A DNA stretch of 64,000 bases from an uncultured Lachnospiraceae bacterium (GTDB lineage: Bacteria > Bacillota > Clostridia > Lachnospirales > Lachnospiraceae), in NCBI GenBank assembly GCA_946631295.1, contig CAMOZY010000003.1:1-64000 (forward strand). Direction: 5' to 3'. Each line of letters starts with the position of its first letter. Within the stretch, counting starts at the first letter, position 1. The position numbers and the translations under genes are program-made. The notes below the pieces were generated by a model. That model ran no database searches, was not told the DNA's origin, and worked only from the letters and a program-made list of their open reading frames with translations. This document shows, piece by piece, positions 48,072 to 59,357 of the stretch.

Positions 48072-48218
48072 CTCATATCTCCTATAACTTGCCACCCGGC
48101 ATTTTATCCGGTTTCTTCTTAATTAATGGAAACCATTTCTATAGAATATAATACTTATCCACATATTAGTCAAAAGAATGCCCTGCTTATTCACAAAAAA
48201 AGATTTTTTAGCTTCACA

Positions 48219-48247
48219 AAACCATTTTACTCATTCGGACGTATTAT
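48219..48247 (+). promoter_or_regulatory. ECF-type promoter of the second sigma/anti-sigma pair
   Basis: AAACC at 48219-48223 and GTATTAT at 48241-48247, with exactly 17 bases between. Matches the promoter of the first sigma gene (1976-2004) in both boxes and spacing. The ribosome binding site GGGAG follows, with the start codon 31 bases after the -10 box. Confidence 0.6.
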
Positions 48248-48278
48248 ATATGTAAGACGTCTGCACAGGGAGTTTTTG

Positions 48279-48755
48279 ATGACAAAAGATTTCGACAAAA
48301 TATGCGAAAAGTACGGGAACAGGCTGTATGCTGCTGCCTTTAATATATGCAGGCAGCAGCAGGATGCCGAAGATGCGGTACAGGACGCACTGCTTGCCTA
48401 TTACAGGACCGATAAGGAATTCGAATCCGAGGAGCACATAAAGGCCTGGCTGCTGAGAGTTACCGTAAATGCCGCCAAAAGTACAAAAAGGTTATTCTGG
48501 AACAAAAACCGTACATCCTATGAAGAATATATGGACAGTCTCGTATTCGAGGAACCGTCTGACAGAACACTGATGGATGAAGTTTTGGCCCTCCCGGAAA
48601 AATACCGAATAGTCATACATCTCTTCTACTTTGAAGAATATAAGACCAGAGAGATTGCCGAAATCCTTAAATTATCGGAAAACACCGTCAAAACAAGATT
48701 ATCAAACGGCCGTAAGATCCTGAAAACAAAGCTGGAGGGATGGGAAGATGAATAA
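48279..48755 (+). CDS. ECF RNA polymerase sigma factor, second copy
   Basis: A 158-residue ECF sigma factor. Region 2 shows AFNICRQQQDAEDAVQDALLAYYRTDKEFESEEHIKAWLLRVTVNAAKS (about 20-68), region 4 PEKYRIVIHLFYFEEYKTREIAEILKLSENTVKTRLSNGRKIL (about 108-150). It resembles the sigma factor at 1469-1942, notably in HIKAWL, LPEKYRI and HLFY.EEY. I took the ATG at 48279 with GGGAG before it. It overlaps the partner gene by 8 bp. Confidence 0.9.
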   Translation: MTKDFDKICEKYGNRLYAAAFNICRQQQDAEDAVQDALLAYYRTDKEFESEEHIKAWLLRVTVNAAKSTKRLFWNKNRTSYEEYMDSLVFEEPSDRTLMDEVLALPEKYRIVIHLFYFEEYKTREIAEILKLSENTVKTRLSNGRKILKTKLEGWEDE

Positions 48756-49476
48756 CAACAAAGACAGATACCAGAAAAGCTTTAATACATTACATCTCTC
48801 CGAGGAATTCCGGGAAAAGATAAATGAACACCCGGAGGATAACGGAAAGGGTAAGATCATGAATTTCAGAGCAATGCATGGAATAAGCCGTATTGCAGCG
48901 GCAGCCGTAACAGTATGTACTATAGCACTCGGAAGTGCAGGTGTTTGCTATGCCAACGACATAGGTGGTGTACGTACAACGCTTCAGATGTGGCTAAACG
49001 GAAGCAGCCAGGAAGTGGAAGTTGTTCAGACAGGTGAAGGAAGCTATGCCATTTATGATGAAAACGGCGAAGAGACAATGGGATTCGGCGGAATAAGCTA
49101 TGATGAATTCGGCAATGAGGTCCCTATGAGCGCAGAAGAACTTGTAGGATATATGAACAACGACTGCCACTTAGAGATCACCGATGACGGAAGATATATC
49201 TTCTCCTACAAGAATCTTACAGAAGATGTTACAGATCAGGTGGATAAGAAAGGAAATCTCTATCTCCATGTTGACGATCCTTCTAATCCTTACACCTATT
49301 TTGAGATCACTGATATCGAAAATCATGGATATTCAGTGGAATCCGGACGTAAGGCTTCATTCGGAAAGACATATTATGAAATTGACTCATCATCGCTCGT
49401 AATCACTGATGTAAATGAGCGTAATGATGACGAAAATACCACTTACTCATCATTCGTTATGTCAGATGGAGAATAA
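48748..49476 (+). CDS. Membrane-anchored anti-sigma partner, DUF4179-like
   Basis: A 242-residue protein: about 45 cytoplasmic residues, one helix at about 49-69 (ISRIAAAAVTVCTIALGSAGVCYA) and an acidic extracytoplasmic domain ending NTTYSSFVMSDGE. The layout matches the partner of the first sigma factor, though the outer domain is shorter. The outer part has repeated YDENGEE/YDEFGNE turns. Coupled to the sigma gene and followed by a bidirectional terminator. Confidence 0.65.
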   Translation: MNNNKDRYQKSFNTLHLSEEFREKINEHPEDNGKGKIMNFRAMHGISRIAAAAVTVCTIALGSAGVCYANDIGGVRTTLQMWLNGSSQEVEVVQTGEGSYAIYDENGEETMGFGGISYDEFGNEVPMSAEELVGYMNNDCHLEITDDGRYIFSYKNLTEDVTDQVDKKGNLYLHVDDPSNPYTYFEITDIENHGYSVESGRKASFGKTYYEIDSSSLVITDVNERNDDENTTYSSFVMSDGE

Positions 49477-49567: not shown

Positions 49568-51031
49568 TTATTTAAGCAGCTTCGAACTGCTGTAGATATG
49601 GTATTTTCCTATCCTCTCATATCCGGACACTTCAGAGTTCAGCCTGTCGATAAGTTCATCCCAGTTTGTACTGTCTGCTTTATCGGATCCTTCCTTCAGG
49701 AAAATATCCGTACAGAGCTTATCGTCCCTGACGTATACCTTGACTGAAGAAATATCACTGCTCAGTGTTCTGACTCTTTCCTCAATCTTCTTTGCAGATA
49801 CATTCTCTCCGTTAGGCAGTGATATCAGAGTATCCTTTCTGCATTTCAGATATACTTTTTTATTCCTGATGATACCTATATCTCCGGTGAGGAAGTATCC
49901 GTCCTTATTGAACATCCGAGCGGTTGCCTCTTCATCTCCGTAATATCCCTTGAAGATCAGATCACCCTTTACGGCAAGTTCGCCATATCCCTCATCGTCC
50001 GGATCAAGGACAACTGCTTCTATATCCTCCATCAGAGTCCCCGCACTGTTCAGATCAGCCTCTTCGGGATAGTCTATGCAGAATCCTGATGAAGTCTCGG
50101 ACAGTCCGTAGGCATTCATCATATACATGCCCTCTTCCAGGTACGCTTTTCTCATTTCCTGAGAAAGCATCGCTCCTCCGCTGAAGAGATATTTCATCTT
50201 TCCTCCGAAAAGCGCCGACAGACTGATACCGGATGCCAGTGAAGCCTCATGAAATCTTGTGAATATCTTGGGGACTCCTGAAAAAACCGTAGGCTGTGCT
50301 ATAGCCATCTCTCTGGGCATATCATGTACGTTGTTTGCGAGATACACACTGTATCCAAACACAAGTGAATACATATAGTTATATATCGAACCATATGTAT
50401 GATTTAGCGGAAGAAAGAGATAGCACCTGTCGTTTTCGCCGAGCTGAACACGCCTCCCGAGCGTTCTCCATCCGGAAAAAATATTCCTGACAGAAAGCAT
50501 GACAGCTTTAGGAAACGAAGTAGTACCGCTTGTAAATACTATCTTGGCAGGGGAATCCTCATCGGAAGGCTGTACATCAAATAATGAACCGCAGAGTTTT
50601 CTTCCCTCTTCCACGCATTCATCAAAATCATTCTGCATCGAGATAAATCTGATATCAGGATGTTCTTCCTTAAGCCTGTCTGTAACAGCGGACATTGCCT
50701 CGTCATAGATAAGACATGCCAGATCTGCTTTATTTACGGAATATGATGCATTTTCATATGACCAGTCCTTGGAAAAGCCTACACTGCATCCCACATATCC
50801 GATTATGGCCACATCAGCGATAAGCCATCTTATGCTGTTGGGACCGTATATTCCTATATTCTTTCCGCCAAATCCCTGATCTTTAAGATATGCGGCAAAA
50901 TAATTAACTCTTTCAATAAAGTCAGCATAAGTAGTCGGTATATATTTATCTTCGTGAAGTTCAAACAGATAATCCCTGTCTCCCCACTTTATATAATCCT
51001 CGCGAAGATATGTATCGAGCGTATTACCCAT
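49568..51031 (-). CDS. AMP-forming acyl ligase (long-chain acyl-CoA synthetase-like)
   Basis: A 487-residue member of the ANL superfamily that activates a carboxylic acid with ATP. The phosphate loop is IVFTSGTTSFPKAVML, then LPLNHTYGSIYNYMY, the aromatic-adenine motif NAYGLSETSS, GDLIFKGYY..EEAT and YFLTGDIG. The C-terminal domain is shortened but has CRKDTLISLPNGENVSAKKIE. The nearest type is long-chain fatty-acid ligase. It is the last gene of a seven-gene lipid operon, directly behind a GNAT acyltransferase-like gene to which it could deliver an acyl donor. Confidence 0.85.
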   Translation of the reverse strand: MGNTLDTYLREDYIKWGDRDYLFELHEDKYIPTTYADFIERVNYFAAYLKDQGFGGKNIGIYGPNSIRWLIADVAIIGYVGCSVGFSKDWSYENASYSVNKADLACLIYDEAMSAVTDRLKEEHPDIRFISMQNDFDECVEEGRKLCGSLFDVQPSDEDSPAKIVFTSGTTSFPKAVMLSVRNIFSGWRTLGRRVQLGENDRCYLFLPLNHTYGSIYNYMYSLVFGYSVYLANNVHDMPREMAIAQPTVFSGVPKIFTRFHEASLASGISLSALFGGKMKYLFSGGAMLSQEMRKAYLEEGMYMMNAYGLSETSSGFCIDYPEEADLNSAGTLMEDIEAVVLDPDDEGYGELAVKGDLIFKGYYGDEEATARMFNKDGYFLTGDIGIIRNKKVYLKCRKDTLISLPNGENVSAKKIEERVRTLSSDISSVKVYVRDDKLCTDIFLKEGSDKADSTNWDELIDRLNSEVSGYERIGKYHIYSSSKLLK

Positions 51032-51034
51032 CAG

Positions 51035-52102
51035 TCAGTCCTCCGTTAATGGATGTTCCATCAATACATATTCATAAATACTTGTGATATCCTCCGATGC
51101 GTAGGTCTGTGTGACCTTACCGTCCCTCGCAAGCGCTCCTATGCTTGGCAGTTTATTCTGCTCCAGTTCCTTCATGATCGAATAAACGATTGCCTTGCCA
51201 AGACCTCTGTGCTGTGCGTCCACACCCATATACAGCATCACATAACGCTTGGGATGCTTTTTGGTATTAAGAACTTTTAGTATATTAACAGGATTAAGGT
51301 GATATACCCTGTTGCCGTAATCCGGGAGACTTATATAAAAACCGACAACCGTGTCATGAAAATAAGCTATCTTGGTCATACTCATGTTCATGATCGTCTT
51401 GTAGCTCATGAACATCTCACGGAAGGCTTCCCATGACAGATTCTTGAATATGGGAAAATCGCTGTAAAGATCAGTGATCAGCCTGTACACATCCTCCAGG
51501 ATCTTCTCATAATCCTCCGGTTTCGGACTTTCTATCCTGTAACCCTGGTCAAGAAACTGCTTATATCTGGTCTCGTACTTTTCATTTACATAATCTTCGT
51601 TTATAGCCCTGTACAGATTTGAAGTGTAATGCTCCTTAACCGCGTAACCGTTTGCAAGGAACAGATCATAATAATAATCCTTATTGTAAGGTTCTCCGGT
51701 ATATGGAGGCATAGCGAAATTATTGATCTTCAGTCTGTACTTGATCCAGAAAGACGCATCAACAGGACCGGTTATAACCGAACAGTTCTTCTCTTTGGAA
51801 ACCTTCTTCGCATTATCAAATAGAAATGCAGCAGTATCATTATCGTCTATGCACTCGAAAAATCCCAGATATGCTGTATCATCATCCGGATATGTGGTTA
51901 TCGCAAATCTTCCGTTTACATTACTTCCGTCATATATCAGATATGCCTCTATTCTAAAATACTCAGAAAGAGGATGCTCCCCCTTAAGAAGCTGCCTGAC
52001 TGTATCAGGACTCTCCATATTATCGGAAGCAGAATAAAGCTTCTTCGGAAGCTTCACAAAATCCTCTATATATTTATCACCGTTTACTTTAACGCATTCC
52101 AT
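51035..52102 (-). CDS. GNAT-fold acyltransferase-like protein
   Basis: A 355-residue protein. The N-terminal half (FVKLPKKLYSASDN, then AYLGFFECIDDNDTAAFLFDNAKK, GPVDASFWIKYRLKINNF and PYTGEPYNKDYYYDLFLANGY) matches the long GNAT proteins seen in sphingolipid and related lipid gene sets of other bacteria, where one member is a ceramide synthase. The C-terminal GNAT core has MLYMGVDAQHRGLGKAIVYSIMKEL with the acetyl/acyl-CoA loop QHRGLGKA. N-acylation of an amine with a fatty acyl donor is therefore a reasonable hypothesis. Start overlaps nothing but is adjacent to the preceding stop (0 bases). Confidence 0.75.
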   Translation of the reverse strand: MECVKVNGDKYIEDFVKLPKKLYSASDNMESPDTVRQLLKGEHPLSEYFRIEAYLIYDGSNVNGRFAITTYPDDDTAYLGFFECIDDNDTAAFLFDNAKKVSKEKNCSVITGPVDASFWIKYRLKINNFAMPPYTGEPYNKDYYYDLFLANGYAVKEHYTSNLYRAINEDYVNEKYETRYKQFLDQGYRIESPKPEDYEKILEDVYRLITDLYSDFPIFKNLSWEAFREMFMSYKTIMNMSMTKIAYFHDTVVGFYISLPDYGNRVYHLNPVNILKVLNTKKHPKRYVMLYMGVDAQHRGLGKAIVYSIMKELEQNKLPSIGALARDGKVTQTYASEDITSIYEYVLMEHPLTED

Positions 52103-54385
52103 TTACTTTCTCCGAATGATATCAATCCTGCCGGTTCCTCCGTCCATACGTATCACATCTCCTGTACGGATCGTATCAGTAAGATCCTGAACTCCTACTA
52201 TTGCAGGTTTCTTAAGTTCTCTTGATATGATGGCAGTATGTGAAAGGAGTGATCCTTTTTCCGAAACAACTCCTTTTGCCGAAGCAAGCAGGAATACCCA
52301 TCCCGGATCCGTCATCACCGTAACAAGTATTTTGTCCTTTACATCCCGGACATCTCCTATATTCCTTATTACAAGTGCTTCTCCCTCTATGACGCCGGCA
52401 GAACACGGCACTCCCGACAGTGTATCCGTTTCCTTTATTCTTCTGTAGGATTTTACATCAGCAATGCTCTTATCGAATTCCTTATCTTCGAATATCAGCC
52501 TTGTATAGGGAGGGAGTTTTTTAAAAACATCATACGCAGATTTTCTCTCCTCAACATCAGCCCTCATATCTTTTGGAGTATCTGCGAGTTTAAACGCTTC
52601 ATCAACACTGAGAAAAAAAATATCATCTGGTTTTTCAAGAAGGCCGTTATCTGCGTACGATTTTCCGAGCGATGTGAAAATACTTCTCACCATTCCATAA
52701 ACTCTGCTTCGGTTCAGCCTGGATCTTTCTCTTCCCGCGATTCCGGCTGCACATCTTTTGCCAAGGAAACGCGTTACCGGATCAATTTTGATTTTCTGAG
52801 CATTATCATTCTGAGCGTAATCATTATTCAGCCCGTTATATGTCTCCTTAAGTTTCTCCGGATCATTCCTGTACTCTGCGATCCTTTCATCAAGCAGATA
52901 CGGATGAGACCGGAAGGTTTTGCTTTCAAGCTTTAACTCTTCAAGGTTTCTGTCACCGTATTCCCTTATGTATTCCTTTTTCTTTTTTTCCAGTTCGTCC
53001 GACGAATACTCATCATATCTGTATGCAAGCTCAATAAGAGCTTTGATCGGTTTCATACTCTCGATATTTGTAATTCCGGAAATGTAGCGGTTTATATAGG
53101 CATCATCAGCGTTTTTCTTCTTCAGCCTGTTCTTCACAAGTGCCGTAAATACGAATGAATATGTATCATTCAGCAAAGTTACATCCCATATATCAAGAAG
53201 CTTTTCTTTTATCTCGTTATACAGACTGATCAGTTCAGCCGGAGTGCTTTCGGAACTGTAGCGTTCATAGAAATACCTGTTTGTTTCTGAAAACTTCTTT
53301 TCGAGACTTTTCATATGTCTGGGAACACTGATCAGTTCATAAAAAGAATTCACATAGGTCATGAATCTCACAAATGATGACAGATCCACCTCACTGTCAT
53401 CGTAGCCTTTGTTTTTTACTCCGAGCATTTCCTGCCATACGGGTATGATCTTTTTGCTGAACGGAAGGAACTTGAGCACCGTATACCAGTTGCTGATTTT
53501 ATAGTACATACGACCGTTCGCATTTCCGACCATATTGCCGAACACTTCGGTATGTTTATTTAATTCCTTATCATTCTTGAGTACTCTCCTGCTGACTCCT
53601 CTGAACACCCCACTGTATACGATATGCACGAATGATACCGTCAGCGGAAGAGAAAGTCCCGGATAACTCTCCACAATGTTGCTGTTATCCAGAATAAGCG
53701 GCGAATCACCCTTTATCGTCGTAATGGGACGAGCCTGTAATATATTCAGTTCTCCATTAGAAAAGGCAAATTCTATATCAAGGTAATCTCCAAGAATTTC
53801 CCTGATTCTGTCGGATACATCCATGAGCTCGTCTATCTCTTTTTCGGAAAGAAGTTCCTCTTTGCCCTCGTAGTAGTAAAGCCTGTCCGTCTTGTTGTAA
53901 TAGTATGTCGTAGTATCCGCAGACCCGGATACCACGCCCTCTCCAAGCCCCCTGGTTACACTCACAACACTTTCATTGAGTATTCCCTGAGGATTGGATG
54001 TAAACAGAACTCCTGCCTTATCAGCCTCTACCATATCCTGAACGATGACACACATCTTCAGATCATCGGAAGACAGATGGTGATATTCCATGTACTTTTT
54101 AACGTTATCAGCATACATGGAGTCTCTGCAGAGCATCACCTTATCATAAACCTCTTCAGGTTTTACATTCAGATAAGTTGCAAACTGTCCGGCAAAGCTC
54201 TGGTCACTTCCGTCTTCAAGATTACATGAACTTCTCACAGCATAGGCTTTTGTATTCTTTGATGAGATGAATGAAAGTCCGGCATCTGTATCTGTTTTCC
54301 CGTCAAGACGGATTACCTCAAATGCAGGAACGCTTATCCCTGCATCACGGAGTTTTATGAGATTGTCCGCTTTACTTCCGTACAT
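52103..54385 (-). CDS. Dikinase-like phosphotransferase, copy 2 (no PEP/pyruvate barrel)
   Basis: A 760-residue protein. Residues 1-240 form the PPDK_N ATP-grasp domain (GSKADNLIKLRDAGISVP, YAVRSSCNLEDGSDQSFAGQFATYLNV, VIVQDMVEADKAGVLFTSNP, SVTRGLGEGVVSG, DIEFAF...LNILQARPIT). The last 100 residues form the swivelling phosphohistidine domain with catalytic His716 in SLLSHTAIISREL. The 380-residue helical middle part is not the PEP-binding TIM barrel of PEP synthase. This order is that of rifampin phosphotransferase, where ATP is split and the beta-phosphate moved via His to a hydroxyl. Here the acceptor is unknown, probably a lipid or lipid precursor. Confidence 0.8.
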   Translation of the reverse strand: MYGSKADNLIKLRDAGISVPAFEVIRLDGKTDTDAGLSFISSKNTKAYAVRSSCNLEDGSDQSFAGQFATYLNVKPEEVYDKVMLCRDSMYADNVKKYMEYHHLSSDDLKMCVIVQDMVEADKAGVLFTSNPQGILNESVVSVTRGLGEGVVSGSADTTTYYYNKTDRLYYYEGKEELLSEKEIDELMDVSDRIREILGDYLDIEFAFSNGELNILQARPITTIKGDSPLILDNSNIVESYPGLSLPLTVSFVHIVYSGVFRGVSRRVLKNDKELNKHTEVFGNMVGNANGRMYYKISNWYTVLKFLPFSKKIIPVWQEMLGVKNKGYDDSEVDLSSFVRFMTYVNSFYELISVPRHMKSLEKKFSETNRYFYERYSSESTPAELISLYNEIKEKLLDIWDVTLLNDTYSFVFTALVKNRLKKKNADDAYINRYISGITNIESMKPIKALIELAYRYDEYSSDELEKKKKEYIREYGDRNLEELKLESKTFRSHPYLLDERIAEYRNDPEKLKETYNGLNNDYAQNDNAQKIKIDPVTRFLGKRCAAGIAGRERSRLNRSRVYGMVRSIFTSLGKSYADNGLLEKPDDIFFLSVDEAFKLADTPKDMRADVEERKSAYDVFKKLPPYTRLIFEDKEFDKSIADVKSYRRIKETDTLSGVPCSAGVIEGEALVIRNIGDVRDVKDKILVTVMTDPGWVFLLASAKGVVSEKGSLLSHTAIISRELKKPAIVGVQDLTDTIRTGDVIRMDGGTGRIDIIRRK

Positions 54386-54391
54386 CTGTGC

Positions 54392-55291
54392 TCAGATCCT
54401 TCCCACAAGAAGAAATACCACAACAGTAAGAAGCATCGTTGATTCCTGAAGGTATGTATATCTTTCGACTTTATCGACAAGCACGAATCTCTCGGGATCC
54501 TTCATATACTGAACGAATTTCCATGTCATCCATGACACTAGAAGGACAAGGATCAGTATGGAAATCTTATTTAGCCTGAACACAAGAATAATATTGGTCA
54601 TGATATCCACAAGCGTAAGTATCATTACGAACCTTGTAGACTTCTTATACCCGAACAGTTTGGAATATGTCGTATAATCATTCTCATCCTTAGGAGCCTT
54701 GATCTTACGTGAAACCTCCCAGATAAGAGCAGGGAAATACAGAGTCCATAAGGTCATTACAGTGGTGATGGTAAAAGGAGGGAGATCATACTTGATGACA
54801 GTGAATGAAATGATATATAGATTGACGAACATCTGAACAGGATTATGAGTTACAAGTGCAAGAGGAAGAGACGGCTGGATCTTAGCCTTTTGGAAGAACC
54901 ACTTGCTCATAAGATATCCATAGAAATACAATATGCAGAAGAATACGATGTTGTTCATGAAGATGATATTCAGCACAACAGCGATCAGGTTAAAGAACGC
55001 GCAGAGTATTACAACATCCTTCTTAAAAACAGCACCTCTTGCAAGAGGTCTGTCAGGAAACAGCTTCTTATCAACATCAAAATCCTTCAGGTCATCCGCA
55101 ATCCTTAGCCAGAGTAAAAAGGCAAATACTGTATATGCCCCGACCACTTCCTGTATACCTATATCAAATGTCGTTACACCTTCATTTAATAATATGATGA
55201 AATGTATTTCCAGAAAGACGATGAGTCCGAGTATCAGTCTTGCGATAAACGGATATCTTTCCTTCATGTAAATATGCATTCTCTTTAGCAT
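54392..55291 (-). CDS. UbiA-family prenyltransferase
   Basis: A 299-residue membrane enzyme with eight to nine predicted helices. The first Asp-rich motif is RIADDLKDFDVDKKLFPDRPLARG (D66, D67, D70, D72, D74), the second is KAPKDENDYTTYSKLFG (D202, D205). Both bind prenyl diphosphate through Mg. The family attaches a prenyl chain to an aromatic or polar acceptor. The first motif, DDxxDxxxD, is intact. It overlaps the phosphatidylserine decarboxylase stop by 7 bp and lies six bases before the dikinase-like copy 2, so it is part of the lipid operon. Confidence 0.85.
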   Translation of the reverse strand: MLKRMHIYMKERYPFIARLILGLIVFLEIHFIILLNEGVTTFDIGIQEVVGAYTVFAFLLWLRIADDLKDFDVDKKLFPDRPLARGAVFKKDVVILCAFFNLIAVVLNIIFMNNIVFFCILYFYGYLMSKWFFQKAKIQPSLPLALVTHNPVQMFVNLYIISFTVIKYDLPPFTITTVMTLWTLYFPALIWEVSRKIKAPKDENDYTTYSKLFGYKKSTRFVMILTLVDIMTNIILVFRLNKISILILVLLVSWMTWKFVQYMKDPERFVLVDKVERYTYLQESTMLLTVVVFLLVGRI

Positions 55292-56145
55292 CTTATTCCT
55301 ACGCCTTCCCCATACAGAACTTTAGTTTCAATCCCCTCTGCACTATGTACCATGATGTCTTCATCAATCTTCACAGTATTCTTTTTGAAGAACTGGATTA
55401 TGGTCGAACCGCCGGGTTCAAAATAACCTTTCTCATCACCCTTTGAGAAGCTTCTTATATTATGATTGATTATTTTTCCGACCAGAAGAGCTCCGACCTC
55501 TATATGGATCACCCTGCCGAAATTCTCCGTATCCATTACATTTATTACTCTGAAGTTCTCTTTATATATCTTATGATCCTTCGAAAGAGAACTGACCGTA
55601 TGCAGCTTTCCTTTAATGGTTCTTCGCGCCTTCAGTCTTCCGTTGTCTATGAAACAGTATCTGTGAAGATCATCCATACACAGACGATATACCAGACAGA
55701 TTCCTCCGGAATATTCTTCACTGTACTTATCATCCGCAAGTATCTCATCTACTGAATAAGTTCTGCCCTTGACATTTATCTGCAGATCTTCATCTATTTT
55801 ATAGACCAGCAGTTTTGCATCCGCGGGAGAAATAAGGATATCCTTATTCCCTTCGATCTTCCTTGCTCCGTCACGGAGTTTTCTTGTAAAGAAATCATTA
55901 AACGATACGTATTCCCTGTCTTCGTAATCTTCCATTCGGATGTGGTTTTCTTCTATAAACCCGGGAATTTTTCCGGCACTGGACTTCCTGTCGTTCAAAG
56001 CACCGTACAGCCTCGATACAGCAGGAGATACCACTATCTTCAGAAGCACTCTTCCGAATACATTCCCATACAGGAATTTCAGTTTCTCCTGACCATACTG
56101 TGTGATCTCCTCGTATTCTTTTGTCCTGCGGTCATATATTTTCAT
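55285..56145 (-). CDS. psd: Phosphatidylserine decarboxylase
   Basis: A 286-residue pyruvoyl-dependent enzyme that turns phosphatidylserine into phosphatidylethanolamine. It shows SFNDFFTRKLRDGAR, SPADAKLLVY with the catalytic Asp, YRLCMDDLHRYCF with the His and FEPGGSTIIQFF, where cleavage between G246 and S247 makes the pyruvoyl group. Length is that of type II Psd from Clostridia. The usual partner, a CDP-alcohol phosphatidyltransferase making phosphatidylserine, is not in this window. Confidence 0.92.
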   Translation of the reverse strand: MKIYDRRTKEYEEITQYGQEKLKFLYGNVFGRVLLKIVVSPAVSRLYGALNDRKSSAGKIPGFIEENHIRMEDYEDREYVSFNDFFTRKLRDGARKIEGNKDILISPADAKLLVYKIDEDLQINVKGRTYSVDEILADDKYSEEYSGGICLVYRLCMDDLHRYCFIDNGRLKARRTIKGKLHTVSSLSKDHKIYKENFRVINVMDTENFGRVIHIEVGALLVGKIINHNIRSFSKGDEKGYFEPGGSTIIQFFKKNTVKIDEDIMVHSAEGIETKVLYGEGVGIRC

Positions 56146-56225
56146 AAATTATGTTTTATTCTTAAGTCAGCCGGATATCCTCACAATTTCTATTTATATC
56201 TGAGCCACTAACGCATCTGTCCGGG

Positions 56226-58733
56226 TTACTTCTTAATTGTAACGGTCCCTGTACTTCCATCTATAGTTATGATCTGTCCGTCACGAATCTTCGACATTGC
56301 ATCCTTGCAACACACTATCGCAGGGATACCATACTCTCTCGATACGATTGCTGCATGACAGAGTATTCCGCCATATTCCGTAACGATTCCTGACAGTATC
56401 GCAAATTTTGGAGTCCATCCGGTATCGGTAAATTTTGTGACAAGAATGTCACCTTCTTCGAGCCTGTCTATCTGTGTGAAATCCTCAATAACTCTTGCTA
56501 TACCTGTCACTTCACCGTTGTTGGCACCAAGTCCTTTTATAAGTGCTTCACCGTTACCGACACTTTCTGATCTGTTGTTGAATACAGTACCGATCTCATT
56601 CTCACTCATATAGTTCCTGTATGCGTTGTAATAGAACCTGTTTTTGGATATCAGATTCTTCAGATCATCCGCTGTCTTCTTTCCATCAATATAATCCCAC
56701 AGGTCTCCGACCTTAAGGAACCATACATCCTCTTTCTTCTCAAGAACACCTTTCTGAGTAAGCAGCTTAGCATACTCAAGGGTATACATTCTGATCATGT
56801 AATAAAACCTGGTGGATACATCCCTGAATTCCTCTCTCCACCACAGCATCTTTCTCATCCCGGACACTTTCTTACAGATTCTGTTGTAAGTAAAAGGAGA
56901 AACTTTGGCTTTTACTTTTCTCAGAACATCCCTGTACATTTTCTGTCCGTTCTTCTTATCTTCGAGCGGAGAATAAAGGTCTTCGAGTGCGACCATATCC
57001 CTGACCATTCCGACCATGACTTCAGGCTCTTCGTAATAGCAGGGATATGTTATATCCAGTTCCTTATCGGAATGATAACCATATTTGTCTATCAATGCCT
57101 TAACATCAGGAAGACAGAATTTATCATCTGAAAGAGACGCTGCTATTCCGGAAGCCTCTGTTCCGGTCCAGTATCCGTATGAATCATTATCCTTTCTTAT
57201 CTTCCTTGAGATATCCCACATCTCATAGAAAGGAAGCAGGTGTGAGATGTTATCAATGCTTCCGAGAAGTGACAGATATTCACTTTCCGAAACATACTTT
57301 AGCAGACTGTCCTTATACAGTGACTGATGGATGGTATTGATGAAGATCTGCCAGAAATAAGTCGTTTCACTTCTCAGATAAGTCTTCTTAGTGATACGGT
57401 AGAAACTCTTCTCAATATCATTTATGGCATGATTGTCATATTTTTCTTTATAGTCATAATACTGTTCCAGCAGATCCTTCTTATACCTCTCGGCATTCTC
57501 TCTTCTGGATTTCAGTATCCTGCTCTGATTTATCACAATACGGATCATTTTTGAGACAGATGCAGGAGTGATCTTCGTCGTCTCGCCGTCACCCTCATAA
57601 TCGCCTATGATGCCATACTCGTTATCGAATTCTCTTTCCTTATATCCGATGACCTGACTCATCGTCTTCTTGACGGCAGACATATTCCAATAAGGACGTC
57701 CGTAGAACATCTCTCCCAGTTTTGCAGGAAGTTCATCATCCCTCAGGATCTCTGATCTTACAATGAAATTTCTCAGTGAAAATTCCCAAATATATTCATA
57801 CAGACTCCACATATATGGAGTGCATACAGTTGCGGATACTCCTCCATCCTTGAAGTCCGCCGTTGTCCACATGTCTGTAATACCGTTGTATTTGATGCTG
57901 GTTATCTTTCTTGCCTGCAGGATATAGAGTGTGTCTCCTTTTATCGCAAATTCTATATCGCACGGATATCCGAAGTACTGCTGAATATCGGCGAATACAG
58001 CAGCATATTCCGTCACCTTCTCTCCCGTAAGAAAGCTGCACTGATCGTCTGCACCAACCTGAACTCCGTCATACCAGTTGTAGTGATACTGCTCCGGTTT
58101 TGTCTTTCCGCTGACTATATTTTCACCAAGTCCTTCTGAGACCTCGATAAGCATCTCTTTATCATTTCCGGTTACCGGATTAATGGTAAAGCAGATACCG
58201 CTGTATGATGCATCTACCATTTCCTGTATGACAACCGACATCTTCATTGAAGCAGCATCTATATTTCTTCCTGCCACATACTGAAGAAGTACTTCACTGA
58301 ACATCGATCTGTAACATGCAAGGATATTCTCCTCAAGGTCTGCCTTCTTAATGTTCAGAAAGGTTTCATACTGTCCCGCAAAAGAATACTCTGCAAGATC
58401 TTCCTTACTGCCGCTGCTTCTTACCGCATAGAGAACATCATCACCGGCAAGCATGTTGATCTCTTCAAGGATCTTCTCAGGAATAAGTGCACCGTTAAAT
58501 AACTCAGTGATCCTGCCCGATATCTCACGTACATTTTCGGATGTAAGTTCACTGAGAGCGTTTTGTATCTTTTCTCCGATACCGTTTGATGTTATTACCT
58601 CGTCATATACATCACTGTCCAGGATAAATCCTCCCGGAACATTAAATCCCTGCTTTTTCATCTGCAGCAGAAATTTACCTTTGTTTCCGAGTTTTTCTTC
58701 CTGTAGTGATTCCTTTTCGAGTTTTACTATCAT
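56226..58733 (-). CDS. Dikinase-like phosphotransferase, copy 1 (no PEP/pyruvate barrel)
   Basis: An 835-residue protein with the same order as copy 2: ATP-grasp PPDK_N domain (GNKGKFLLQMKKQGFNVPGGFILD, YAVRSSGSKEDLAEYSFAGQYETFLNI, VVIQEMVDASYSGICFTINP, EVSEGLGENIVSG, DIEFAIKGDTLYILQARKITS), a helical middle part of about 450 residues and a C-terminal phosphohistidine domain (GGILCHAAIVSREYGIPAIV; His about 793). The C-terminal part keeps the TKFTDTGWTPKFAILSGIVTEYGG strand order. The PEP/pyruvate barrel is missing. The two copies diverge in the middle, where the acceptor would bind. Start chosen at ATG 58733 with GTGGG upstream. Confidence 0.8.
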   Translation of the reverse strand: MIVKLEKESLQEEKLGNKGKFLLQMKKQGFNVPGGFILDSDVYDEVITSNGIGEKIQNALSELTSENVREISGRITELFNGALIPEKILEEINMLAGDDVLYAVRSSGSKEDLAEYSFAGQYETFLNIKKADLEENILACYRSMFSEVLLQYVAGRNIDAASMKMSVVIQEMVDASYSGICFTINPVTGNDKEMLIEVSEGLGENIVSGKTKPEQYHYNWYDGVQVGADDQCSFLTGEKVTEYAAVFADIQQYFGYPCDIEFAIKGDTLYILQARKITSIKYNGITDMWTTADFKDGGVSATVCTPYMWSLYEYIWEFSLRNFIVRSEILRDDELPAKLGEMFYGRPYWNMSAVKKTMSQVIGYKEREFDNEYGIIGDYEGDGETTKITPASVSKMIRIVINQSRILKSRRENAERYKKDLLEQYYDYKEKYDNHAINDIEKSFYRITKKTYLRSETTYFWQIFINTIHQSLYKDSLLKYVSESEYLSLLGSIDNISHLLPFYEMWDISRKIRKDNDSYGYWTGTEASGIAASLSDDKFCLPDVKALIDKYGYHSDKELDITYPCYYEEPEVMVGMVRDMVALEDLYSPLEDKKNGQKMYRDVLRKVKAKVSPFTYNRICKKVSGMRKMLWWREEFRDVSTRFYYMIRMYTLEYAKLLTQKGVLEKKEDVWFLKVGDLWDYIDGKKTADDLKNLISKNRFYYNAYRNYMSENEIGTVFNNRSESVGNGEALIKGLGANNGEVTGIARVIEDFTQIDRLEEGDILVTKFTDTGWTPKFAILSGIVTEYGGILCHAAIVSREYGIPAIVCCKDAMSKIRDGQIITIDGSTGTVTIKK

Positions 58734-58766
58734 TTCATTTCCCACCACTAAATTTATTTAAACTGT

Positions 58767-59357
58767 TTAAAATGGATTCTTCCTTAGTTTTGCCAGATAC
58801 AGAAGAATATTCAGGATAATATGCGTTAGTGCTCCAACCAGTACATAGACAAGATACAATCCGATCCCAAGATCATAGAACAGCCACACGACCAGTGCAC
58901 ATCCGAATACCGAATCCGCCTGATCCAGAAAAACAAAGAAAAACTTCCAGAAGCCCGATATGGTTTTTCCCGGAGTTATATCGAGTCTTCTTTTCATGAA
59001 GCTGTTCGGAAGTTCAAACAGAGCATATCCGCATCCGATAAGAAAACCGGTAATTATATTAAATAGAAGTGTATTATCGTGATCTACGTAAAAGAAATTA
59101 AGATGATCGATTCCTGCAGCGCGGCAGATCAATCCCCATATAACAGAAAAAATGGTATTAAAAACAAGATACCCTAAAAAACCCTTCCAGGTCTTGTTGT
59201 CTCCGAATATTCTCCTGCCGTCTGTATAATTCTTTCCCATATCCATGGGCTTTTTCAGAGGCTTCAGGAGTCCGGTCTTACACCATATCATATTCAGTAT
59301 TCCCGATAATATGGCAGGTGCAAGAGTTATATACATCATCAGTAAGGTCGTAAGCAT
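58767..59357 (-). CDS. CDP-archaeol synthase-like (CarS/DUF46) CTP:lipid-phosphate cytidylyltransferase
   Basis: A 196-residue membrane protein with five predicted helices. FGDNKTWKGFLGY, the loop ALFELPNSFMKRRLDITPGKT and FLDQADSVFGCALV are the CarS signature (GDNKTWRG, S..KRR..I.PG, DQ.D). In archaea CarS turns an isoprenoid ether-lipid phosphate into a CDP-lipid. Bacterial relatives are thought to act on diacyl- or other lipid phosphates. As first gene of the lipid operon it would supply the activated lipid. I took the ATG at 59357; the longer frame starts with TTG inside the promoter. Confidence 0.8.
   Translation of the reverse strand: MLTTLLMMYITLAPAILSGILNMIWCKTGLLKPLKKPMDMGKNYTDGRRIFGDNKTWKGFLGYLVFNTIFSVIWGLICRAAGIDHLNFFYVDHDNTLLFNIITGFLIGCGYALFELPNSFMKRRLDITPGKTISGFWKFFFVFLDQADSVFGCALVVWLFYDLGIGLYLVYVLVGALTHIILNILLYLAKLRKNPF

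Follow-up and report, generated by a model that had tools for sequence, protein, structure and literature searches.

The first 64,000 nucleotides of contig CAMOZY010000003.1 (assembly GCA_946631295.1) of an uncultured Lachnospiraceae bacterium, hereafter the window, contain a seven-gene operon (positions 49568–59357, minus strand) that very probably encodes a dedicated second lipid pathway ending in ethanolamine. To judge from its genes, the cassette looks like a counterpart running parallel to the ordinary pathway, and the balance tips slightly toward a second amino-phospholipid that would be made alongside ordinary phosphatidylethanolamine (PE). More tentatively, it may represent a modular, patchily distributed pathway in which a UbiA-type transferase and a phosphohistidine dikinase, not PlsX/Y/C, build the backbone of a new class of bacterial membrane lipids; the head group would be either ethanolamine phosphate (via the dikinase DK1 or DgkA, CarS, PssA, and Psd) or an aminocarboxypropyl, betaine-type group (via BtaA). 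There is a fair chance that this lipid class is really new. A preliminary description of the window had already proposed an undescribed lipid pathway, and this proposal stands: the genes form a recurrent lipid operon, and no open-licence paper in PubMed Central (PMC) was found by its title to treat this gene set.

Organization of the operon

All seven genes lie on the minus strand and are nearly contiguous. In the order of transcription, they encode a CarS-like CTP:lipid-phosphate cytidylyltransferase (58767–59357; PF01864), a putative second CDP-lipid synthase beside the housekeeping CdsA; an Rph-like dikinase (DK1; 56226–58748; PF01326 and PF00391), the proposed lipid-alcohol kinase, whose position is called the kinase slot below; a pyruvoyl-type phosphatidylserine decarboxylase (Psd; 55285–56145; PF02666), the proposed maker of the ethanolamine head group; a UbiA-superfamily membrane transferase (54392–55291; PF01040); a second Rph-like dikinase (DK2; 52103–54385; PF01326 and PF00391), which is the usual neighbor of UbiA and, like UbiA, a core gene; a GNAT-type acyltransferase predicted to consist of two alpha/beta halves (51035–52102; PF00583 in relatives); and an AMP-forming acyl ligase (ACS; 49568–51031; PF00501), which is not always present and is proposed to supply the acyl donor for GNAT. 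The coordinates of the open reading frames (ORFs), with the ATG at 59357 as the start of CarS, give junctions of 18 bases between CarS and DK1, 80 bases between DK1 and Psd, 6 bases between UbiA and DK2, 0 bases between DK2 and GNAT, and 3 bases between GNAT and ACS, and an overlap of 7 bases between Psd and UbiA; all seven ORFs of the preliminary description, with gaps of at most about 80 bases, were thus recovered. The 80-base gap (56146–56225, minus strand) is the site of a PssA-like CDP-alcohol phosphatidyltransferase in most relatives, which is absent here.

Conservation of the cassette

A profile scan of genome contigs with the UbiA alignment yielded 280 relatives, and the genes surrounding the best 80 of these were counted by tblastn, with several loci ending at contig ends. 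This neighborhood analysis, proposed as a check in the preliminary description, shows the genes kept together and not scattered among relatives: DK2 is present in 78 of the 80 loci, Psd in 75, GNAT in 74, CarS in 72, DK1 in 72, and the ligase in 60. The seven genes therefore form a recurrent unit, but an eighth member had been overlooked. Clustering of neighboring ORFs revealed that the PssA-like gene occurs in 61 of the 80 loci, usually between DK1 and Psd. Its product belongs to PF01066; the best NCBIfam matches are archaetidylserine synthase (80.9 bits, cut-off 240) and PssA, both below the cut-off. The next most frequent flanking family, an ABC ATPase (judged by eye), is found in 13 of the 80 loci, and no other family exceeds this number. 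Ten inserted or flanking proteins from six loci were assigned with Pfam to an extra two-domain GNAT, glycosidases, a transposase-type nuclease, RNase HII, and a chemoreceptor, with three remaining without a match.

Addition of divergent clusters from the order and the class and of one plasmid expanded the sample to 103 loci, or 100 after three duplicate contigs had been dropped. Because calling of the longest non-overlapping ORFs missed some short genes (e.g., DgkA in locus L140), the wider set was recounted by tblastn. Besides UbiA (100 loci, by construction), it comprises DK2 (98), GNAT (91), Psd (84), CarS (83), DK1 (77), PssA (72), and ACS (69, a count lowered in part by contig ends). The labeled genes are co-directional in all 96 loci that have at least four of them. 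Since the same arrangement is found again in dozens of genomes with differing flanks, it is more than chance.

The distribution of the cassette is patchy. UbiA is present in 11 of the 31 genomes of the genus that includes the window, and its family in 14 of the 295 genomes sampled from the order; at the level of class and phylum, the UbiA profile matches (E ≤ 0.001) 18 of 391 genomes (10 strong matches) and 5 of 398 genomes (1 strong match), respectively, with the window's own genome included in the counts for order, class, and phylum. The distances of the cassette genes are correlated (r = 0.74–0.93 across 41 loci, each with the complete set of six tested genes), and the genes have a common history. 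Four cassettes (L089, L090, L108, and L115) are located on contigs titled Saccharibacteria or Fibrobacter, which could reflect either true transfer or mis-binning of clostridial DNA. Other carriers are cultured strains, to judge by the titles of their records: Lachnospiraceae P6A3 and AC2028, Butyrivibrio sp. XPD2006 and INlla14, and Ruminococcaceae YRB3002; in the cluster of INlla14, the ligase was not seen.

Exchangeable kinases and head-group modules

The constant core of the cassette is UbiA and DK2, nearly always with GNAT. The kinase slot is filled by exactly one of three families in 92 of the 100 loci (DK1 in 77, DgkA in 8, and a membrane protein termed CTPK in 7), and no locus has two of them. 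Among the eight loci without a slot kinase, seven (L047, L053, L062, L106, L109, L135, and L142) are on short contigs or have a contig end within the cassette region; the other is L095, where the 2 kb available upstream of UbiA contain an unrelated glycosidase. DgkA, assigned with PF01219 for the copy in L136 and by similarity for the others, never occurs together with DK1. It stands directly before CarS in all eight loci where it replaces DK1, and the tblastn spans of the two genes overlap in seven. In a tree of DK2 calculated with a quick method from 63 of the 96 available rows (DK1 rows thinned), DK1 and DgkA change at least twice, with L091 and L112 placed within a DK1 clade by supported branches. 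The two dikinases singled out in the preliminary description are indeed both recurrent in the lipid operon, but their roles differ: DK2 belongs to the constant core, whereas DK1 occupies a replaceable slot.

The entire head-group module is exchanged in seven distant clusters (L132, L133, L134, L145, L174, L175, and L176), where relatives of UbiA and DK2 (7 of 7 each), GNAT (6 of 7), and the ligase (5 of 7) stand with BtaA and CTPK. BtaA, which is absent from window-type cassettes, was assigned by PF11899/DUF3419 in L132 and L133, by a DUF3419 annotation in L145, and by similarity in the others. None of CarS, DK1, DgkA, PssA, and Psd was found in the stretches fetched for these clusters. One cluster, which has the same gene order as the clostridial L133, comes from an alphaproteobacterium, Roseinatronobacter sp. 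S2, where a plasmid carries it; no other of the 72,556 plasmid records has a UbiA of this kind. Described BtaA pathways use diacylglycerol, and we know of none that involves UbiA or a dikinase. Clusters of UbiA, DK2, BtaA, and CTPK, going by their gene content, probably encode a betaine-type or homoserine lipid pathway of their own. In L132, a condensation-domain protein (PF00668) and a weakly matching HAD-like protein are found between UbiA and DK2 (L132:7259–9108), and no GNAT was found in this cluster; the condensation-domain protein is perhaps a different acyltransferase.

The motifs RK..H, D..AA..G, KS.EG, and DN..P are visible in most aligned rows of CTPK, and from these we take the protein to be kin to phytol, dolichol, and diacylglycerol kinases. 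A relationship of CTPK to CarS was rejected (probability of 0.2% in a profile comparison).

Enzyme families and catalytic residues

Both dikinases have an N-terminal ATP-grasp domain (PF01326), a middle region, and a C-terminal phosphohistidine domain (PF00391), with both Pfam domains above their cut-offs. The phosphohistidine is conserved in all 74 aligned sequences of DK1 (H798) and in 93 of 94 of DK2 (H716; the remaining one has a gap), and the ATP-grasp residues checked in the alignments of both are invariant or almost so. The architecture with a conserved histidine is the same as in Rph, the prodigiosin ligase PigC, and phosphoenolpyruvate (PEP) synthase, but the window's dikinases differ in their lipid gene context and remain below the curated cut-offs: among the best 25 NCBIfam families per protein, neither reaches that of PEP synthase, Rph, or PigC. 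DK1 and DK2 score 311.0 and 217.4 bits, respectively, on the Rph model NF041857 (cut-off 999) and 282.1 and 175.3 bits on the PEP synthase model TIGR01418 (cut-off 739.75). Only PPDK_N and PEP-utilizers domains pass the Pfam cut-offs, and no PEP/pyruvate-binding barrel does. Among solved structures, both are closest to the 5fbs/5hv1 group, whose entries were deposited as "phosphoenolpyruvate synthase" and which we take to be the Listeria rifampin phosphotransferase. Relatives of DK2 are common outside the cassette; they occur on 198 of the 72,556 plasmid records, only one of which carries a cassette-type UbiA. On a plasmid of Peptoclostridium acidaminophilum (L146:7728–10752), a related dikinase-like protein is followed by a MoaE gene. 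Two more PPDK_N proteins are encoded elsewhere in the window's genome (G000:C45:4326–5459 and G000:C10:19920–20957).

UbiA passes the cut-off of PF01040 marginally (35.5 vs. 34.2 bits). This score and its first motif, D66-x3-D70-x3-D74, place it in the superfamily, and residues D66, D70, D74, E192, K196, and E203 are invariant in all 97 aligned sequences, whereas the lysine of motif 2 (K130) is conserved in 73 of 97. The second acidic motif is based on glutamate (E192 and E203), unlike the usual Asp-rich one. The protein scores 405.5 of the 443 bits required by an NCBIfam model named prenyltransferase but 17.7 of the 353 bits required by the archaeal model PRK12883.

CarS is a member of PF01864 (71.6 bits, cut-off 22) but lies below the cut-off of the CDP-archaeol synthase equivalog PRK04032 (81.1 vs. 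148 bits). Psd matches PF02666 (PS_Dcarbxylase) with 164.9 bits and has the pyruvoyl-forming GGST motif in all 82 aligned sequences; ACS matches PF00501 (AMP-binding) with 190.6 bits. Unlike the other six proteins, which all exceed Pfam gathering scores, the GNAT copy of the window has no Pfam match; PF00583 matches 36 of 40 aligned sequences at E ≤ 0.1 (best 3.3e-7), and the predicted structure (mean pLDDT 85.5, pTM 0.84) shows two mixed alpha/beta halves, which we read as a two-domain GNAT. A search of PHROGs with GNAT and UbiA gave no match. In four loci (L064:14216–15229, L065, L071, and L072), an extra GNAT-domain protein separates the cassette GNAT from the ligase. Intact catalytic motifs, which the preliminary description claimed for all seven members, were confirmed at the residues checked in five of them (both dikinases, UbiA, the GNAT motif, and Psd), with a qualification for the glutamate-based motif of UbiA; the motifs of CarS were judged solely by conserved alignment columns and those of the ligase by its SGTT loop only.

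A second set of lipid genes

CdsA is present in 39 of the 40 relatives searched, including the window's genome (G000:C8), which also has a separate PssA-like gene beside another Psd (contig G000:C30). With CdsA and a PssA–Psd pair located elsewhere, the cassette contributes CarS and Psd as extra copies. The order of reactions and the homologous PssA and Psd are shared with bacterial PE synthesis (CdsA, PssA, and Psd), but the cassette has CarS in place of CdsA and, in addition, a kinase, UbiA, DK2, GNAT, and the ligase. The PssA-like gene links CarS to Psd and thereby completes the head-group chain in 61 of the 80 loci. A CDP-alcohol enzyme of 271 amino acids that had at first seemed to track the cassette was discarded; in the ORFs of two of the three stretches concerned, it adjoins genes of proline synthesis and glutamyl-tRNA ligase, with no lipid cassette gene in view.

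Proposed pathway

Knowledge of the respective enzyme families, together with the observed gene content, conservation, exclusivity of the kinases in the sample, and separate copies of CdsA, PssA, and Psd, suggests the following sequence of reactions. Since the core is paired with two unrelated head-group routes, it would make the lipid alcohol that bears the head group: UbiA and DK2, together with GNAT fed by the acyl ligase, would assemble an unusual lipid alcohol in the membrane, with DK2 using the β-phosphate of ATP via a phosphohistidine to activate either one of the substrates of UbiA or its product. DgkA enzymes are lipid-alcohol kinases, and because DgkA adjoins CarS, the DK1 that it replaces would most simply phosphorylate the same alcohol for CarS; the odds that DK1 does feed CarS appear even. 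CarS would convert the lipid phosphate to a CDP-lipid, the PssA-like enzyme (encoded in the cassette of most relatives but elsewhere in this genome) would exchange CMP for serine, and Psd would decarboxylate the serine to ethanolamine. The preliminary description was right in recognizing a lipid operon but missed the separate CdsA and PssA–Psd pair, the swap between DK1 and DgkA, and the exchange of the whole head-group module for BtaA; its proposal of an amide-linked or prenylated phospholipid is a guess.

Several observations weigh against this proposal. PssA is absent from the cassette of the window and, according to tblastn, from 15 other CarS-bearing loci of the wider set. A genome-wide search of 14 of the 16 genomes with PssA-less CarS cassettes and of two controls found a match in 14 of the 16 genomes searched; none was found in G010 and the genome of L058, both of which have PssA-less cassettes. 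In G1111, the PssA matches mostly contain stop codons, and even the best one has an internal stop. The exclusivity of the slot kinases counts loci and not independent events, with only two switches between DK1 and DgkA and one BtaA clade underlying it, and searches of Pfam, NCBIfam, and the PDB found nothing beyond chance for CTPK. The common history of the genes could in part be species history. DK2 scores 806.3 of the 850 bits required by NF004882, a model named phosphoenolpyruvate synthase, which is the nearest miss among the curated families. No dedicated prenyl synthase accompanies the cassette in the 31 genomes of the genus, where a search with PF00348 found a single polyprenyl synthase in 30 genomes with or without the cassette and two copies in G018. 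Lastly, a kinase-like gene is present also beside BtaA, which acts on a lipid hydroxyl and should need no lipid phosphate; the slot may therefore serve UbiA rather than CarS.

In locus L170 of G1111 (G1111:C125:5663–5899), two short PssA-like pieces, one of them with stops, lie near Psd on the contig of the cassette; the PssA of L170 seems to be decaying in place.

Alternative explanations

The kinase-like gene beside BtaA is also the reason why activation of a prenol is the most seriously taken rival, although it seems rather unlikely. According to this explanation, the slot kinase (DK1, DgkA, or CTPK) would convert a free prenol, either dietary phytol or an endogenous prenol, to its monophosphate, DK2 would add a second phosphate, and UbiA would prenylate a lipid acceptor, while CarS, PssA, and Psd act on phosphatidate or the prenylated lipid. 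A similar logic, by analogy only, may be seen in the salvage of phytol in plants, where VTE5, VTE6, and VTE2 act as two successive kinases and a UbiA-type transferase; VTE6, however, is unrelated to the dikinases. Prenol activation would account for the presence of a kinase-like gene from one of three families even in BtaA clusters, which lack CarS. Also in its favor are the first acidic motif of prenyltransferases retained by UbiA, the score of UbiA on the prenyltransferase model, and the unchanged number of polyprenyl synthases, which salvage would allow; moreover, the DgkA of Gram-positive bacteria is an undecaprenol kinase. Yet DgkA is coupled to CarS and not to UbiA, no dikinase is known to us that phosphorylates a phosphate, and no prenol importer, reductase, or other further gene is conserved around the cassette.

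Synthesis of archaeal-type isoprenoid ether lipids by Clostridia, with UbiA as DGGGP synthase (DGGGPS), CarS as CDP-archaeol synthase, and PssA and Psd as archaetidylserine synthase and decarboxylase, is very improbable. Archaeal polar lipid synthesis shares a UbiA-superfamily transferase, CarS, a serine synthase, and a decarboxylase with the cassette, and both the family membership of CarS and the best NCBIfam match of the PssA-like protein agree with such a pathway. However, a search for GGGP synthase (GGGPS; PF01884) at E ≤ 0.001 had no hit in the window's genome (91% complete) or in the ten other cassette-bearing genomes of the genus; 106 relatives gave 16 matches, all of them weak and most covering less than a quarter of the model. 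UbiA scores far below the cut-off of the archaeal model, and of the DGGGPS motifs quoted in PMC9385802, it has motif 1 but not the Asp-rich motif 3. In archaea, DGGGP already carries a phosphate, which would make the kinase slot superfluous, and the two dikinases, GNAT, and the ligase are additions to the archaeal gene set. The archaeal-type pathway was set aside on the absence of GGGPS, the model score of UbiA, and motif 3. The archaeal-type lipids of the Fibrobacteres–Chlorobi–Bacteroidetes (FCB) bacteria show the opposite gene content, with GGGPS and DGGGPS present and CarS not detected, as described in PMC7852524.

The cassette might also be a redundant route to ordinary PE, with UbiA, DK2, and GNAT regulating or remodeling normal lipids. 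This is hardly to be expected, even though CarS, PssA, and Psd each have counterparts elsewhere in the genome, because the core is not tied to ethanolamine lipids: UbiA and DK2 stand with BtaA in seven loci, and in L140 and L144 they occur with no PssA and Psd in the cassette. The presence of PssA elsewhere in the genomes of L140 and L144 weakens the latter point. Finally, the dikinases might serve to inactivate antibiotics of the rifampin type or belong to a small-molecule pathway, with the lipid genes being chance neighbors, as the closest solved structures and the frequency of DK2-like dikinases on plasmids that lack a lipid context could suggest. Their low scores on the rifamycin phosphotransferase model and the tight synteny with lipid genes render this exceedingly unlikely.

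Flanking genes

A zinc-ribbon gene flanks the cassette. On the opposite strand, an ECF-type (extracytoplasmic function) sigma factor and then a protein of 242 amino acids (window positions 48126–49476) are both directed at the 3′ end of the operon. The 242-residue protein has no family match and is possibly an anti-sigma factor.

Implications

If the proposed pathway is correct, many Clostridia of herbivore guts (judged by the titles of the records) would make a class of membrane lipids that we have not found described, and the BtaA variant would extend this class to at least one alphaproteobacterium. To our knowledge, Rph-like dikinases would thereby gain their first lipid role, and a function would be provided for some of the proteins named "phosphoenolpyruvate synthase" or "PEP/pyruvate-binding protein". 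The pathway would also suggest why bacteria without GGGP synthase carry CarS-like genes. A rumen metatranscriptome study (PMC12570477) takes CDP-archaeol biosynthesis as an activity of methanogens; if the pathway exists, CDP-archaeol annotations in the rumen may be partly bacterial, and the CarS genes of the cassette could contribute to them.

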